Positions 24,482 to 29,736 of a stretch of DNA of 64,000 nt are shown in pieces (position 1 is the first letter of the stretch; every line of letters starts with the position of its first letter). The position numbers were made by a program, and so were the translations under genes. The notes beneath the pieces were generated by a model. It was not told the origin of the DNA. It ran no database searches and was given only the letters and a program-made list of their open reading frames with translations. The DNA comes from Gilliamella sp. App4-10 (lineage in GTDB: Bacteria > Pseudomonadota > Gammaproteobacteria > Enterobacterales > Orbaceae), in NCBI RefSeq assembly GCF_001690495.1, contig NZ_LZGS01000035.1, positions 496,001 through 560,000 of the forward strand, written 5' to 3'.

Positions 24482-24522
24482 TTTTTACGACACAAAAAAT
24501 TATCTATATCAAAAAAATATTA

Positions 24523-25404
24523 GGGGCTGTTGATCTTTACTGTACATAAATTTCTCAACAATACATTGGCAGCCACATTAACATAAATGCCAGTTATACC
24601 ATACTGGCATAATTCCTTTCTAATTTATCGTATCTAGTTGATATTGAACGATATTTATTGATTCTAGCAAAGGCATTCTCGACTAAATGACGATAGCGAT
24701 AAAGGCACCTATCCATACTGCTTTTATCTATATCCTTACCATAATTACGTTTAGCAATCACCATTCGTCCGCCTTTTTGACGAACAAAGCACCGAAAAGG
24801 CTCGCTGTCATAACCTTTATCGGCTATTACTGTATTCACTTCATCGAGCTTTCCAACTAGGTTTTCTGCATAAGTGATATCATGTCGTTGTCCTTCAGAA
24901 AGCTCAAAACAAATAGGCAAACCACCACTATCAACCGCAAGATGAATTTTAGTTGAATGACCACCACAGCTCTGATCTATTTGCTCGGAATGCTCCGTTG
25001 CAGCACCTGTACTATGTTGATGAGCCCTGATAATCGAGCCATCTAGGAACACCCATTCAAAATCCGCTAGTTGTGATAAATGTTTGAAAATATCAACTAA
25101 TATTCCTTTTTTAGACCACAAATTAAATCGTCTATAGACGGTGCTCCATTCACCAAACTCTTCTGGCAAATCTCGCCAAGGAATACCGGTTCTCATTCGG
25201 AAAAGGAGCCCTTCAAACGTCATCCGATGCTCGGATTTATTATAAACTCGGCCGGTATTTTTCATTATTTGTAGTAGCTTTTCCCACCGTTTATCTGTTA
25301 GCATTGTTCTTGGCATGATGAATCGAGTTAGGGTTGTTTTTTGCAGAATTATTATAACTCACATCATGCCGTCTAAAAAATAATCACGAAAGATCAACAC
25401 GCCC
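24523..25404 (-). mobile_element. IS5-family insertion sequence, 882 bp, apparently complete
   Basis: Inverted ends are GGGGCTGTTGATCTTT (24523-24538) and, on the opposite strand, GGGCGTGTTGATCTTT ending at 25404: 14 of 16 positions agree. Both ends are flanked by TA (24521-24522 and 25405-25406), consistent with the 2-bp target duplication of the IS427 group. One transposase gene fills the element on the minus strand. Confidence 0.85.
24594..25316 (-). CDS. IS5-family transposase
   Basis: DDE transposase of 240 residues occupying nearly all of the IS element. The N-terminal DUF4096-type domain reads LTDKRWEKLLQIM and MRTGIPWRDLPEEFGEWSTVYRRFNLWSKKG. Catalytic residues are seen as Asp in FLDGSIIRAHQHS (about 95), Asp in VIADKGYDSEPFR (about 166), and Glu in HLVENAFARINKYRSISTRYDKL (about 214). 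Unlike many IS427-group elements, which need a frameshift, the gene is one open frame. No internal stop is seen, and matching ends and target duplication suggest recent, possibly still active, insertion. Confidence 0.93.
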   Translation of the reverse strand: MPRTMLTDKRWEKLLQIMKNTGRVYNKSEHRMTFEGLLFRMRTGIPWRDLPEEFGEWSTVYRRFNLWSKKGILVDIFKHLSQLADFEWVFLDGSIIRAHQHSTGAATEHSEQIDQSCGGHSTKIHLAVDSGGLPICFELSEGQRHDITYAENLVGKLDEVNTVIADKGYDSEPFRCFVRQKGGRMVIAKRNYGKDIDKSSMDRCLYRYRHLVENAFARINKYRSISTRYDKLERNYASMV

Positions 25405-25431
25405 TAATTTATCATTAATATAATTATCATT

Positions 25432-26253
25432 TTAAATGATAGTGTCATTAAAGTTTCTCCATGGGTGGTTATTTCTCATCGCTTTTTGATAATTACTTGG
25501 AGTTACCCCGAAATTTCGACGGAAAATAGCAATAAAACCACTAATATTATCATAACCTAAATTTAAAGAAATTTCTGTGATAGGTCTGCCCGCAACAAGC
25601 AACTCTAAAGCTTTTAACATACGTAGTTTCTGTCGCCATTCTGTGAAATTAAATCCAGTTTCATTTGTAAATCGACGAGTTAATGAGCGTCGAGAAATCC
25701 CAGCCCAAACGCTCCATTCATTAATGTTTCTATCGTCACTAGGATTATTAGACAAAGCTAAAGCAATTTTTAACAAACGAATATCTTTTGGCATTGGGAG
25801 TGCTATCTCAACTTGAGGGATTATACTAATCTCGTCGACAATCACTGCCATCAATCGCTTATGCTCGGGTTGCAATTCTGAATTATTCCATGTCATGGTT
25901 CGGGTAATTGCTTCACGCAATAGACTAGATAATTCTAGCATGCAGGGTTTATTCGGCAGATTATTACATTCGCTTTTTTGTATATAGATACTCCATCCGT
26001 GGAATGGCCCATGTGATCCGAGAAGAGAATGCTGTGTATCTGGAGGTATCCATATACCATGAGTTGCGGGTATTACCCATTGACTACTTTCCACTTCAAT
26101 TGAAATTAAACCTTGTAATGTACCAGCTAGTTGTCCTCTCGAGTGATGATGAAGTTCTGTTACTTTCACTGATGGGGATTTGAGTGATGCCGATATAATC
26201 ATAGGTTCGTTATCAGAAGAAGCGACCTCTGGAGAAATGAGTGAAATATTCAT
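25432..26253 (-). CDS. AraC-family regulator divergent from the cyclodipeptide cluster
   Basis: Transcriptional regulator of 273 residues. The N-terminal cupin-like sensor half contains LHHHSRGQLAGTLQGLISIE and WVIPATHGIWIPPDTQHSLLG, the pattern of the NimR/YeaM type of AraC proteins. The C-terminal DNA-binding half (about 170-262) has two helix-turn-helix units: NEWSVWAGISRRSLTRRFTNETGFNF and PITEISLNLGYDNISGFIAIFRRNFGVTPSNYQ. GAGG lies 9 bases before the ATG. It is transcribed away from the cyclodipeptide synthase gene with 236 bases between, and an inverted repeat at 26290-26318 lies in that gap. It is therefore the likely local regulator (inferred). The ligand is unknown, but the cluster product or its precursor is a fair guess. 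Confidence 0.9.
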   Translation of the reverse strand: MNISLISPEVASSDNEPMIISASLKSPSVKVTELHHHSRGQLAGTLQGLISIEVESSQWVIPATHGIWIPPDTQHSLLGSHGPFHGWSIYIQKSECNNLPNKPCMLELSSLLREAITRTMTWNNSELQPEHKRLMAVIVDEISIIPQVEIALPMPKDIRLLKIALALSNNPSDDRNINEWSVWAGISRRSLTRRFTNETGFNFTEWRQKLRMLKALELLVAGRPITEISLNLGYDNISGFIAIFRRNFGVTPSNYQKAMRNNHPWRNFNDTII

Positions 26254-26289
26254 TTATATGGCCTCTAAGTAATATTTTGTGGCTGGAAT

Positions 26290-26318
26290 TAGTTAGTAAT
26301 TTTTTGTTTTACTAACTA
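26290..26318. promoter_or_regulatory. Inverted repeat, candidate operator of the AraC regulator
   Basis: TAGTTAGTAA (26290-26299) and TTACTAACTA (26309-26318) are perfect 10-bp inverted arms separated by 9 bases, centre-to-centre 19 bp. The repeat lies 37-65 bases before the regulator start and 172 before the synthase start. No T-run accompanies it as a terminator would need on the plus side. Confidence 0.5.
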
Positions 26319-26489
26319 TCCTAAATTAGCCCAACTTAATTCAAATAAAATAAATATAACTATATATATTAAAAATAAATTAGCAATAAATCATGAATGA
26401 TTTAAAAAAAATATTATTTAATATAATTGATTGAAATAATTAATGTTATATATATTTTTATTAGCTAGCTGTCTAGAAAGAGGTATAAA

Positions 26490-27128
26490 ATGAAAGGAAA
26501 ACATGTTTTATTTGGCATAAGCCCTTTTAATTCCAAATTTAATGAAAATTACATTAAAAATATGTTGGAGTGGGGGTTTGATAATTATGATCATGTAGAT
26601 GTTTTACATCCACATGAAGAGGCTAAGTATCTTTTAATAGGAGCTGGAGATAATGAGGTAAAAGCACGTAAAAAATCACGAAAAGAATTTTATCGAATTG
26701 AAAGAGCTATTAATAATTATTTATCAATGTTTGGTCATGATTTTTTTGCAAAAAGAATATTAAAATTTTCCGATTTTTATGCTGACGAATTGTATAAAAA
26801 AAATGTAGAGATAATAAAAGAAGATTTTAAAAATAATGAGAATTTTCACTCATTATGTATAACTCAGTCATATAAAGCTATTTTGAATAGAAAAAACGCC
26901 ATCAGTAAAACATCTGAAATAAAAGAACAGGATATTATTATTGCTACAGAATATATAATAAGAGAAATTCCTTTTATTATTTCCCCTTCTTTATTGTCAT
27001 CTTCACTAACTAGTCTGCATATATCTTATTACTGTTCATGGCCAATAGCTGATTATGTTTATGCTGGAAAGTTAAGTATCAGCCCTAGTTCAGATACAAA
27101 AATTATTGTTAAAGATCATTCAATTTAA
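26490..27128 (+). CDS. Cyclodipeptide synthase (tRNA-dependent)
   Basis: Makes a cyclic dipeptide from two aminoacyl-tRNAs. The fold is Rossmann-like, as in class Ic aminoacyl-tRNA synthetases. The 212 residues show the family signature GISPFNSKF with nucleophile Ser11 (AlbC Ser37) and Asn14 (AlbC Asn40). The basic helix KARKKSRKEFYRIER (58-72) corresponds to the tRNA-binding patch. Tyr155 and Glu159 in ATEYIIREIPFI match AlbC Tyr178 and Glu182, and Tyr180 in SYYCSWP matches Tyr202. The residue after it is Tyr181, where NYH-type enzymes have His. AAGAGG lies 6 bases upstream. A CypX-like P450 starts 23 bases downstream, which favours cyclo(Leu-Leu) as product by analogy to Bacillus YvmC; the substrate cannot be read directly. 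Length is at the short end of the family. Confidence 0.9.
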   Translation: MKGKHVLFGISPFNSKFNENYIKNMLEWGFDNYDHVDVLHPHEEAKYLLIGAGDNEVKARKKSRKEFYRIERAINNYLSMFGHDFFAKRILKFSDFYADELYKKNVEIIKEDFKNNENFHSLCITQSYKAILNRKNAISKTSEIKEQDIIIATEYIIREIPFIISPSLLSSSLTSLHISYYCSWPIADYVYAGKLSISPSSDTKIIVKDHSI

Positions 27129-27151
27129 TTATTAAGTAATATGGAGGTAAT

Positions 27152-28333
27152 ATGTTGACTATGAACAATCATTTTCCAGGAGTGTTGTCTGATGAATATG
27201 GACAAGATCCATACAAATATATTGATTTATTGGATAAAACGGAGAACGTTATTTATGACAAAACTTTAAATGCGCATTTAGCTATTAGTTATGATGCTGT
27301 TCGTAGCATACTTGGAAATTCAGTATTATTTTCAACAAAACCTTTATCTAAAAGAGCTGAGCCAGTAATGAGGGGAAAAGTTCTGGCTCAGATGGAAGGT
27401 AATGAACATAAAATAAAAAAGAGCATGCTCTTACATCAGCTTACCGGTCGTGTGTTGAAAGATTATTATCACCCCAAACTGACAAATCTATGTGATTCAT
27501 TGTTAACAGAAATTATAACTAAGAACAAATTTGATTTTATTTCTGATTTTGGTAATAAATATGCTTTATTAACAACATTCAATATCATTGGTATTGATTA
27601 TAATAAATTAGACTGGTATCTAGAAAGATTAAAACTCATAGTTCAATTTGCGACTGGGTTTAATCTTTCAAAAGAGACTGAAGATATCGCACTATTTGCA
27701 TCTGAAGAATTGGAAAAAGTGATATTGGATTTAATCGATGAACGTAAAAAGTGTGCTGGAGATGATATTATTTCTTTTATTATTCATAATAGTAATGAAA
27801 GTGAAATATTAAGTGATAGTGAGATAGTCGCACTTTCATTAAACATTTTACTTGCAGCTTCAGAACCAGTTGATAAAGTTTTAGCAAATTGTATCTATCA
27901 CCTTTATAGAAATGAATCTTATATTGATCTAGTTATCTCCAATGATTGCAGCACTAATAGTATCTTGCAGGAAAGCTTACGAATTACACCACCTGTTCAT
28001 TTAATTCCACGCCAAGTCGAGGATGATAGTTGTGTTGAAGGTGTTAACTTAAAAAAAGGAGATTTAATATTTTCCTTAATACCATCAGCAAATAGAGATG
28101 AAAAATATTTTGAACACCCAAACACATTCAATCCACGAAGAGAATTTAAGGGACATCTTTCATATGGAGTGGGAATTCATGCTTGTATTGGTGCTCAATT
28201 TGCAAATATGCAATTAAATATCGCCCTTCAAAAATTAGTTTTAATACTTAAAAATTATAAAGAAATTACACCGCCAACGTTCGGTGGAATATATACGCGA
28301 GGCGCAACTCAATATAATCTGGAAAGAGTTTAA
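27152..28333 (+). CDS. CypX-like cytochrome P450 (cyclodipeptide oxidase)
   Basis: Soluble bacterial cytochrome P450 of 393 residues. Heme ligand Cys345 lies in YGVGIHACIGAQFA (canonical FGxGxHxCxG with Tyr for Phe). The K-helix Glu-x-x-Arg is in LQESLRI. The I-helix reads LLAASEPVDK and lacks the usual acid-Thr pair. Segments KRAEPVMRG, VLAQMEGNEH, PPVHLIPRQ and IYTRGA strongly resemble B. subtilis CypX (CYP134A1), as I recall it, which oxidises cyclo(Leu-Leu) to pulcherriminic acid. GGAGG lies 4 bases before the ATG (a TTG three bases on and an ATG at 27161 are alternatives). It sits between the cyclodipeptide synthase and an exporter, so oxidation of the cyclic dipeptide is the likely reaction; redox partners are not encoded here. 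Confidence 0.92.
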   Translation: MLTMNNHFPGVLSDEYGQDPYKYIDLLDKTENVIYDKTLNAHLAISYDAVRSILGNSVLFSTKPLSKRAEPVMRGKVLAQMEGNEHKIKKSMLLHQLTGRVLKDYYHPKLTNLCDSLLTEIITKNKFDFISDFGNKYALLTTFNIIGIDYNKLDWYLERLKLIVQFATGFNLSKETEDIALFASEELEKVILDLIDERKKCAGDDIISFIIHNSNESEILSDSEIVALSLNILLAASEPVDKVLANCIYHLYRNESYIDLVISNDCSTNSILQESLRITPPVHLIPRQVEDDSCVEGVNLKKGDLIFSLIPSANRDEKYFEHPNTFNPRREFKGHLSYGVGIHACIGAQFANMQLNIALQKLVLILKNYKEITPPTFGGIYTRGATQYNLERV

Positions 28334-28334
28334 T

Positions 28335-29699
28335 ATGAAGCAATCGATTGACCTGACAACCTCAGAAAGAAAGTTAGTGTTTGCTATGACACTATCTAGT
28401 ATATTGCCATTATTAGATAGCAGTATTGTTAATGTTATTTTACCCTCAATTTCGAATGACATTAATACCTCTTATGCTTATATGCAATGGGCTGTTACCA
28501 TATATATGCTTGCTTGCGCAGCTGGCATATTACTATCACCTTATGTACATGAAAATTTTGGACTCAAGAAAGCATGGGTATGCTCAATTTTTGTCTTTCT
28601 TGTTGGTTCTATATTAGTTGGATTTTCATATAATCTGGTTTCTTTAATCTTGTATAGATGTCTACAAGGTTTTGGTGCAGGAATTTTAATTCCTATTACT
28701 CAATCTACAATAGCAACTTATTTTGGTAAGGAAAGACTAAAGCCGGTTATGGCATTGATTGCTATTCCGTCAGTCTTTGCCCCTGCACTAGGGCCAATTT
28801 TTGGAGCAATCATATCAGAACAGTTAAATTGGAGAATAGCTTTTTTTATCAACATACCTTTAGTACTTATGGCTTTTTTATTTGGTAGAACGACAATGCC
28901 TGATAATAAAACGTCTAAATACAATATGAATATTTATGTATTAATGACATTTTTAATTGCTTTAATAATATTTTTCATCTCTATTAAAAATATCACTTCT
29001 GGGCATTTTTTTGATATTTTTAATATTATTATGCTAGTTTTAGGTATTGGTTTGATGCTGGTTTCGCTTATTATTAATAACAAGTCAGACAGTAAACTGA
29101 TCGATTTAAGTTCATTTAGTTGTATTCAATATTCGTTCGCAATAATTATGGGATTTCTGACGTCACTTATCTTTTTTGGTTTCATGATTTTTTTTCCTTT
29201 AATACAAGCAATAAATGATAATATATCTATTACATATATTGGTATGTTGCTAGCTCTACAAGGTGTAGGTGCCTGGTTGGCTAGAAAATTTATTTATAAA
29301 TCTCTAAGTGAGATAAATTCATTTCTAATTATTGGTGTAGGATTAATAATATCAGCAATAAGTATATTAATAATTCAAGTAGGTGGCAACGCCTTTGAAA
29401 TTATCGGTTTTACTGTTCGAGGTTCCGGATTAGGCGTCGCCACGATTGCTGTTCTCTCTTCTCCATTTGAGTTCTGTGATAAAAATCAAATTAAGGACAC
29501 GAGCGCTATCACGCGTGTTACACAGCAAATTGGTGGTGCATTTGGAGGCGTACTATCAGGAATATTAATCAACCTCACTCAACATCAAATAATTTCAATA
29601 AACTGCGCTTATCAGGCAATGTTTTTTGTGTCTCTGGCTTTTGGTTTTCTAGCGGTTATTGTCTATATTTTCTTTGGCCGAGTGAATACAAGGATTTAG
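28335..29699 (+). CDS. MFS exporter of the cyclodipeptide cluster (DHA2/EmrB-like)
   Basis: Major facilitator of about 454 residues with hydrophobic helices throughout, likely 12-14. Family marks include LDSSIVNVILPSISNDI in helix 1 and YRCLQGFGAGILIPITQSTIATYFG around helix 5, with the drug:H+ antiporter motif C in FAPALGPIFGAII. The ATG at 28335 is used because GGAAAGAG precedes it by 6 bases; it starts one base after the P450 stop, so the two genes are translationally linked. Exporting the oxidised cyclodipeptide, or protecting the producer, is inferred from position, as with YvmA in Bacillus. A strong terminator follows. Confidence 0.92.
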   Translation: MKQSIDLTTSERKLVFAMTLSSILPLLDSSIVNVILPSISNDINTSYAYMQWAVTIYMLACAAGILLSPYVHENFGLKKAWVCSIFVFLVGSILVGFSYNLVSLILYRCLQGFGAGILIPITQSTIATYFGKERLKPVMALIAIPSVFAPALGPIFGAIISEQLNWRIAFFINIPLVLMAFLFGRTTMPDNKTSKYNMNIYVLMTFLIALIIFFISIKNITSGHFFDIFNIIMLVLGIGLMLVSLIINNKSDSKLIDLSSFSCIQYSFAIIMGFLTSLIFFGFMIFFPLIQAINDNISITYIGMLLALQGVGAWLARKFIYKSLSEINSFLIIGVGLIISAISILIIQVGGNAFEIIGFTVRGSGLGVATIAVLSSPFEFCDKNQIKDTSAITRVTQQIGGAFGGVLSGILINLTQHQIISINCAYQAMFFVSLAFGFLAVIVYIFFGRVNTRI

Positions 29700-29704
29700 C
29701 ATAC

Positions 29705-29736
29705 AAAAAAACGGAACATGTGAGTTCCGTTTTTTT
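29705..29736 (+). terminator. Terminator of the cyclodipeptide operon
   Basis: AAAAAAACGGAAC (29705-29717) pairs with GTTCCGTTTTTTT (29724-29736) across a 6-base loop. The T-run makes it a strong intrinsic terminator, 5 bases after the exporter stop, and the A-run on the other side makes it bidirectional. Confidence 0.92.

Follow-up and report, generated by a model that had tools for sequence, protein, structure and literature searches.

The pulcherriminic acid cluster of Bacillus and Staphylococcus, yvmC-cypX-yvmA-yvmB (pchR), consists of a gene for a cyclodipeptide synthase (CDPS) followed by that for a CypX-type cytochrome P450, together with a linked pump of the major facilitator superfamily (MFS) and a regulator. 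A pulcherriminic N-oxygenase with a CDPS making a leucine cyclodipeptide is also described in Photorhabdus luminescens (PMC5767969), and among 147 strains of Gilliamella, "CDPS" is given as one of eight antiSMASH classes, tending to Bombus-derived genomes (PMC9598484). In yeasts, where the biosynthetic genes have no sequence relationship to those of bacteria, the transporter Pul3 takes in pulcherrimin and exports pulcherriminic acid, and it is retained in non-producers (PMC12342472). The possibility that bacterial producers of pulcherrimin are exploited by cheater neighbors was named in 2019 (PMC6613138); the comparative genomics of that paper takes patchy presence as loss and finds the regulator not always present, with no transporter-only genotype reported. 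Here, we analyzed a stretch of 64,000 nucleotides of Gilliamella sp. App4-10 (contig NZ_LZGS01000035.1, positions 496,001 to 560,000; hereafter called the window), in which a gene for an AraC-family regulator is divergent from an operon likewise composed of CDPS, a CypX-like P450, and an MFS pump. When related cassettes were compared, the transporter-only genotype, in which synthesis is lost and the transporter remains whole and constrained, was seen in eight deleted and one frameshifted of ten cassettes.

Results

The sample was made of species representatives: 44 genomes at the level of the family Orbaceae, 35 of which belong to the genus. Genomes compared are labeled with G-numbers, where G000 is the genome of the window (2.43 Mb in 53 contigs). 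G011 falls in the same genus group and, across 11,171 aligned bases, is identical to Gilliamella sp. Choc5-1. With ortholog thresholds of E 1e-60 for MFS and E 1e-50 for AraC, the pump was found in 10 of the 44 genomes and the regulator in the same 10 (nine of the genus and G374), and the two genes form a divergent pair in each. The other 26 genomes of the genus, five of them less than 90% complete, had neither MFS nor AraC at these thresholds. A CDPS over the cut-off was present in two of the 35 genus genomes, one of the two being broken, and a signal of the P450 family in five; a second weak P450 signal in G017 (18.7 bits; L007) was dropped, with tblastn against the window P450 giving just 23% identity over 30 residues (E 4.2). 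Both synthesis genes are intact in only one of the ten cassettes, namely that of the window.

In eight of the ten cassettes, an internal deletion fuses the first codons of CDPS to the tail of P450, and AraC and MFS are whole. There are three types of this deletion: 1599 bp are missing between two copies of a 9-bp repeat in G012 and G374, which represent two genera (J1), 1168 bp in G017 and G023 (J2), and 1745 bp in G001, G015, G020, and G013 (J3). Because the start of CDPS and the end of P450 are kept at the joints of all eight deleted copies, these are losses; an ancestral AraC-MFS pair into which CDPS-P450 was inserted later is ruled out for the eight copies on the same ground. The four J3 junctions are, furthermore, identical with homology of at most 1 bp and hence probably derive from one event, which means that the divergence among the J3 genomes postdates the loss. 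An open reading frame (ORF) of minimal size, in frame with the CDPS start, runs through the J3 joint and stops 1 base before the start codon of the pump in two genomes and 17 bases beyond it in the other two; this mini-ORF could serve translational coupling to the pump. G011 encodes the same P450 and MFS proteins as the window, and its CDPS has a frameshift and three further base changes: namely, 4 changes in 639 bases versus 0 taken for 2547 bases (p 0.0016), the zero resting on the protein identity and on zero synonymous changes in MFS. The CDPS gene contains homopolymer runs, in one of which the G011 frameshift sits, and phase variation or an assembly error is conceivable for it besides decay.

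The kept AraC and MFS are mostly under purifying selection. Both genes have open frames of roughly full length in each of the ten cassettes (454-455 amino acids for MFS; 264-285 for AraC, the C-terminal tails of which vary). In the six pairs of J3 genomes, the ratio of nonsynonymous to synonymous substitution rates (dN/dS) was 0.13-0.31 for MFS and 0.08-0.20 for AraC, compared with 0.39-0.98 for the 27-codon remnant of P450; the highest of the MFS values, 0.31, is that of the closest pair (42 changes). The J1 pair gave 0.15 for MFS and 0.17 for AraC. In the J2 pair, dN/dS was 0.17 for MFS and about 0.73 for the P450 remnant, in which 11 nonsynonymous and 4 synonymous changes stand against 4 and 7 in MFS, and the nonsynonymous rate per site differs between the two (p 0.0016).

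The cassette also moves horizontally, in both its complete and deleted forms. Synonymous divergence (dS) between the window and G011 is 0.68 for FtsI and 0.75 for ThrA versus 0.00 for MFS and 0.01 for AraC, and that between G012 and G374 is 2.38 and 1.93 versus 0.13 and 0.20, respectively. The dS of MFS is lower than that of ThrA in 43 of 45 pairs; among the 13 pairs detailed, the exceptions are G012-G001 (MFS 0.29 versus ThrA 0.13; AraC 0.78) and, barely, G015-G020 (0.78 versus 0.75), and a moving cassette would also give such exceptions. In alignments of at least 250 bases, what many pairs share is limited to a segment running roughly from the AraC end to the MFS end, and the flanks are shared too in window-G017, window-G011, G013-G020, and G020/G013-G374. 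Sharing confined to the cassette, together with its low dS, indicates that the cassette travels, and the difference between the MFS and AraC trees indicates that its parts recombine. Searched at the DNA level, plasmids gave no match to the cassette of the window; nine plasmid records matched the P450 at E 1e-40, all from Staphylococcus or Priestia and below 60% identity, and ten matched the CDPS at E 1e-12. In phages, no P450 match was obtained at E 1e-20.

All four proteins of the window scored over the cut-offs of Pfam (in parentheses): 131.6 bits for CDPS in PF16715 (27), 94.5 for P450 in PF00067 (22.8), 122.5 for MFS in PF07690 MFS_1 (33.4), and 82.2 for AraC in PF12833 HTH_18 (33.6). These profiles bear out an earlier note on this DNA, which had read a set of CDPS, CypX-like P450, and MFS beside AraC in a gammaproteobacterium. 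Its description of an AraC gene divergent from three tightly spaced genes with a strong terminator is correct as well, since the gaps are 23 bases (CDPS-P450) and 1 base (P450-MFS) and the hairpin folds with -17 kcal/mol over 56 bases (z -4.8).

CDPS also scored 136.1 bits in TIGR04539 (cut-off 45). Ser11, Tyr155, Glu159, and Tyr180, assigned to catalytic positions in the earlier note, are indeed present and invariant in seven aligned CDPS, and Asn14 is conserved in six of the seven. The last catalytic Tyr is followed by His in five of the seven and by Tyr in the window protein and that of Citrobacter; these two are also short (212 amino acids each) and have no N-terminal extension of the kind seen in the other five (230-256 amino acids). 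The best match with a solved structure is a cyclo(Leu-Leu) synthase (2.7e-26), and BtCDPS and YvmC are also among the seven matches. Identity to the enzymes of Bacillus, Staphylococcus, Marinomonas, and Winslowiella is 27-33%.

The P450 scored 359 bits (E 2e-107) against TIGR04538, "cyclodipeptide synthase-associated P450," which is under the curated cut-off of 500; this cut-off is also unreached in 14 of 14 control genomes, B. subtilis included. Two CypX proteins are the best solved matches (256 and 247 bits), and the next P450 has 145 bits. The identity is 39% to staphylococcal CypX (structure 7ow9) and 37% to B. subtilis CypX (range reported, 36-39%). Membership in a P450 family is named at identity above 40%, and the window protein thus stays below that level relative to CYP134A1. 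The blocks RAEPVM, VLAQM, LIPRQ, and YTRG are common to both solved CypX proteins, in agreement with the earlier note, where the first of them had been extended to RAEPVMRG. In a tree of 16 rows, the P450 pairs with that of Citrobacter (100/100) inside a CypX set of 12 rows (99/99) against four outgroups. This is one of the placements on which the earlier note had made its reading depend, albeit with a long branch (1.81) and a warning of the program that long branches meet there; the order inside the CypX set is left open by the tree. Judged from its sequence, the window P450 is a divergent CypX relative. A class-wide P450 search (E 1e-30) hit two of 369 genomes, namely the window's own and G492 with a 25% match.

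The parallel that the earlier note drew between the pump and YvmA was not supported. In the family ranking, the window MFS is first placed as DHA2/EmrB (TIGR00711, 185 bits, cut-off 230) with Bcr/CflA at 80 bits, whereas YvmA-like pumps rank first as Bcr/CflA (cut-off 201): 120 bits in B. mojavensis (EmrB 83) and 98.5 bits on an S. haemolyticus plasmid (EmrB 50). The pumps of the window, Bacillus, and S. haemolyticus are all under the cut-off of their best family, and this is hence a ranking, not full membership. The DHA2/EmrB cut-off is passed by the pumps of Marinomonas (265) and Winslowiella (231), with that of Citrobacter below it (173), and between the two pump types BLAST gives just short matches of 21%. 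An MFS motif pattern matched 0 of 11 pumps, the intact Citrobacter pump among them, and was discarded as useless in itself.

In three settings, the deleted cassettes adjoin loci for siderophore receptors and importers. A TonB-siderophore receptor (258 bits over a cut-off of 223.5) neighbors the G374 cassette, as do an AraC gene, two half-transporters of the ATP-binding cassette (ABC) type, and a truncated dihydroxybenzoate-AMP ligase. Of the ligase (L054:7344-8177), the C-terminal half remains (profile residues 263-525), and the adjoining receptor and ABC genes look whole; possibly, this is a second siderophore of which synthesis was lost and uptake kept. In G020, where the cassette sits on the opposite side of a region common to G374, a TonB-siderophore receptor (262 bits), ABC genes, and an AraC gene lie beside it, together with an RhtX/FptX-like MFS that has 130 bits and thus stays below its cut-off (356), and the setting of G013 is as that of G020 (95.5% identity over 18.8 kb). 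In G001, there are a TonB receptor split across two ORFs (119 bits, under the cut-off), a piece of a condensation domain, and two ABC genes. Profile scans covered 2 of 11 flanking ORFs in G012, 2 of 12 in G015, 2 of 8 in G023, and none in G011 and G017. The G015 pump cassette (L056:3960-8233) adjoins type I-F cas3 and cas1 genes, and that of G012 (L053:4739-7564) a 941-amino-acid SIR2-domain protein, a possible phage-defense gene.

The features of the locus are collected in Table 1. The cluster is located between mraZ and zwf (gene names by eye), with an IS5-family element on one side and, by eye, transposase pieces on the other. Translation of MFS likely begins with the ATG at 28335, and the longer listed ORF begins at an upstream GTG (28284). 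The terminator hairpin is unlisted in a simple terminator scan, probably because its stem extends into the T tract. The perfect inverted repeat in the divergent promoter is a candidate regulator-binding site; the region is AT-rich and has 25 inverted repeats in the same scan, and a varied form of the repeat was noticed by eye in other cassette genomes. A scan for sigma-70 sites gave 21, fewer than the 25.7 in shuffles.

Table 1. Positions in the window of the cluster, its promoter and terminator, and the segments missing in relatives
Feature	Position	Strand	Basis or remark
AraC-family regulator (HTH_18)	25432..26253	-	divergent from operon
Cyclodipeptide synthase (CDPS), 212 aa	26490..27128	+	Pfam/TIGR profiles, catalytic residues
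CypX-like cytochrome P450, 393 aa	27152..28333	+	profile, solved-structure matches, tree
MFS transporter, best match DHA2/EmrB type, 454 aa	28335..29699	+	profile ranking
Rho-independent terminator hairpin, 13 pairs	29705..29736	+	folding
Perfect 10-bp inverted repeat TAGTTAGTAA-N9-TTACTAACTA, divergent promoter	26290..26318	.	inverted-repeat scan
IS5-family insertion sequence flanking cluster (transposase 24594-25316)	24519..25408	.	profiles; terminal inverted repeats 14/16 matching
First copy of 9-bp repeat joined in J1 deletion	26566..26574	.	comparison with G012, G374
Second copy of J1 9-bp repeat	28165..28173	.	comparison with G012, G374
J2 segment (1168 bp), counterpart missing in G017, G023	26509..27676	.	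genome comparison
J3 segment (1745 bp), counterpart missing in G001, G015, G020, G013	26505..28249	.	genome comparison

Discussion

We consider it fairly likely that the window holds a complete cluster for an oxidized cyclodipeptide of the pulcherriminic-acid type, the pump and regulator of which are useful without synthesis. From its genes, the cluster is probably complete and working, and there is a reasonable chance, better than even, that its product would be a hydroxamate derived from cyclo(Leu-Leu). As expected from the protein families, CDPS would join two residues, most likely Leu, borne on aminoacyl-tRNA, and ring oxidation by the P450 would yield a hydroxamate that binds iron; export of this product would fall to the DHA2 pump, and switching of the operon to the AraC protein. 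Among bee-gut relatives, the cassette is horizontally mobile, and what usually happens to it in the genomes searched is that an internal deletion removes both synthesis genes. Since synthesis is lost while the pump and regulator are whole and under purifying selection, the pair is considered to be useful without synthesis; it may help a non-producer either to withstand the chelator of its neighbors or to exploit it.

Several observations weigh against this reading. MFS and AraC served as bait for the family-wide counts; with P450 or CDPS as bait in the genus, every accepted match had MFS/AraC, the P450 bait being limited to the genus within the family. If gene length were all that counted, each of the four inactivations would fall in the synthesis genes with a joint chance of ~0.04 (1821 of 4008 bases). 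In the J2 pair, dN/dS of AraC was 0.38 on 7 changes, which are too few to judge. The J2 remnants gave lower ratios when compared with the intact P450 of the window, about 0.36 in G017 and 0.22 in G023, and the contrast in rate between the remnant and MFS had p 0.008 and p 0.31, respectively, where the paths compared include time before the loss. Also, in none of the 10 promoters did the best match to the consensus of a Fur-like site surpass that in shuffled sequences, and iron control by Fur is hence not claimed. The NYH signature of CDPS is incomplete, reading Asn14-Tyr180-Tyr181 at its three positions, which places the window protein outside the NYH subfamily. With Tyr where an NYH-type synthase has His, the product is uncertain, and the cyclo(Leu-Leu) of a YvmC-type enzyme, as suggested by the comparison in the earlier note, is not secured; the subfamily names are those of PMC5767969. 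Retention is, furthermore, not universal: G239 in the sample of the order has a CDPS with, by eye, no P450 or pump within 3.6 kb, and G038, from another family of the order, has a J1-like remnant of P450 and an MFS with 18 stops, with no AraC match within 15 kb. The CDPS of G239 (L012:1429-2121) has the full NYH signature and neighbors that are azoreductase- and nitroreductase-like by eye.

In terms of the product, a different oxidized cyclodipeptide that is neither derived from cyclo(Leu-Leu) nor an iron chelator seems somewhat unlikely. The low identity of CDPS to the known enzymes, its Tyr181 in place of His, and the long branch of a P450 under the TIGR04538 cut-off would be consistent with such a product, but the solved structures point the other way, given that a cyclo(Leu-Leu) synthase is the best match of CDPS, with YvmC among the seven, and two CypX proteins head the P450 list well before the next P450. 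We consider it rather unlikely that AraC and MFS persist as an efflux pair for drugs or metabolites in general, with a benefit unrelated to the cyclodipeptide and synthesis genes that are simply dispensable. DHA2/EmrB, the best family of the pump, is indeed a drug-efflux family, and AraC-MFS pairs of unrelated function exist, for example, NimR-NimT. Nonetheless, MFS was found at E 1e-90 in 10 of the 394 order genomes drawn, and all 10 copies are in cassettes with CDPS, P450, or their remnants; a homologous pump is also behind CDPS-P450 in Citrobacter, Marinomonas, and Winslowiella. Plain decay, in which the losses are so recent that the pump and regulator have had no time to break, is very improbable: there is little divergence among G000, G011, G017, and G023, but in five of the six J3 pairs, MFS has a dS of 0.39-0.81 with dN/dS of 0.13-0.18 and whole frames, and the broken MFS of G038 displays what actual decay looks like.

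As to how the kept pump is used, we favor efflux or protection somewhat over import, given that the pump is of an efflux-type family and that an outer-membrane receptor is absent from the cassette. By analogy with yeast, the MFS would instead take up the iron-loaded compound from producers ("cheater"), and Pul3 imports as well as exports (PMC12342472). The three settings in which deleted cassettes have TonB-dependent receptors and ABC or RhtX/FptX-like genes nearby keep this import alive, whereas inspection, mostly by eye, recognized no iron genes flanking the cassette in G012, G015, G017, or the window, and no Fur-like site stood out from shuffles; import is, taken together, an unlikely explanation. 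The preferred reading, a pulcherriminic-acid-type cluster whose pump and regulator serve also without synthesis, could be extended to a producer-to-beneficiary path for a pulcherrimin-type chelator in bee-gut bacteria, independent of yeasts, with at least three separate deletions and a selected cassette that spreads between genera and settles beside siderophore-uptake loci; we put this forward tentatively, as possible rather than probable. In any case, the complete, synthase-broken, three deleted, and decayed forms are a natural series in animal-gut bacteria, and germ-free hosts exist for bee-gut bacteria (PMC13293248), which makes the cheater question directly testable.

The statement in the earlier note that no such cluster had been described was too strong, given the CDPS class reported for Gilliamella (PMC9598484) and the pulcherriminic-type cluster of Photorhabdus (PMC5767969). 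The main text of PMC9598484 does not contain "P450" or "MFS," and no paper listed in searches of the PMC open-license library names the window locus in its title or the start of its abstract. The cluster is therefore a new member or variant, and its pattern of loss with retention was not found in print by those searches.

A close counterpart is the complete cluster of Citrobacter braakii ATCC 51113 (L017), which has the same gene order with identities of 56% (AraC), 58% (CDPS), 68% (P450), and 52% (MFS) and the same N-Y-Y signature in CDPS. It adjoins genes for a periplasmic Fe(III)-binding protein (PDB 1y9u, 1.7e-150), a permease, and an ATPase. At its end, this cluster (L017:8577-11503) adjoins a DUF2857 gene and an integrase of phage type, which suggests an integrative element; among 17 genomes of the genus, its own is the one in which the pump was found, and E. 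coli genomes had no megablast match to the cluster. The clusters of Marinomonas, which has AraC, and Winslowiella also have the CDPS-P450-pump order of the window, and the BLAST identity to the window pump is 52% in Citrobacter, 29% in Marinomonas, and 28% in Winslowiella. A DHA2-like pump right behind P450 in all four gammaproteobacterial clusters compared, with an adjacent AraC gene in three of them, suggests that they form their own type. Photorhabdus luminescens, compared by its description in PMC5767969, is likewise a gammaproteobacterium with CDPS and a pulcherriminic-type N-oxygenase.

Compared with the cluster of Bacillus and Staphylococcus, the window has a pump ranked as DHA2/EmrB instead of Bcr/CflA and an AraC instead of a MarR regulator; its pump is right behind P450 in the same direction, the His of the NYH signature is replaced with Tyr, and identity is 27-33% in CDPS and 36-39% in P450. 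In the yeast PUL cluster (PUL1-PUL4), non-producers keep the transporter, as do the deleted cassettes of Orbaceae, where the regulator is kept too; the bee-gut genomes differ in showing remnants of the deletions and a pump cassette that is transferred.

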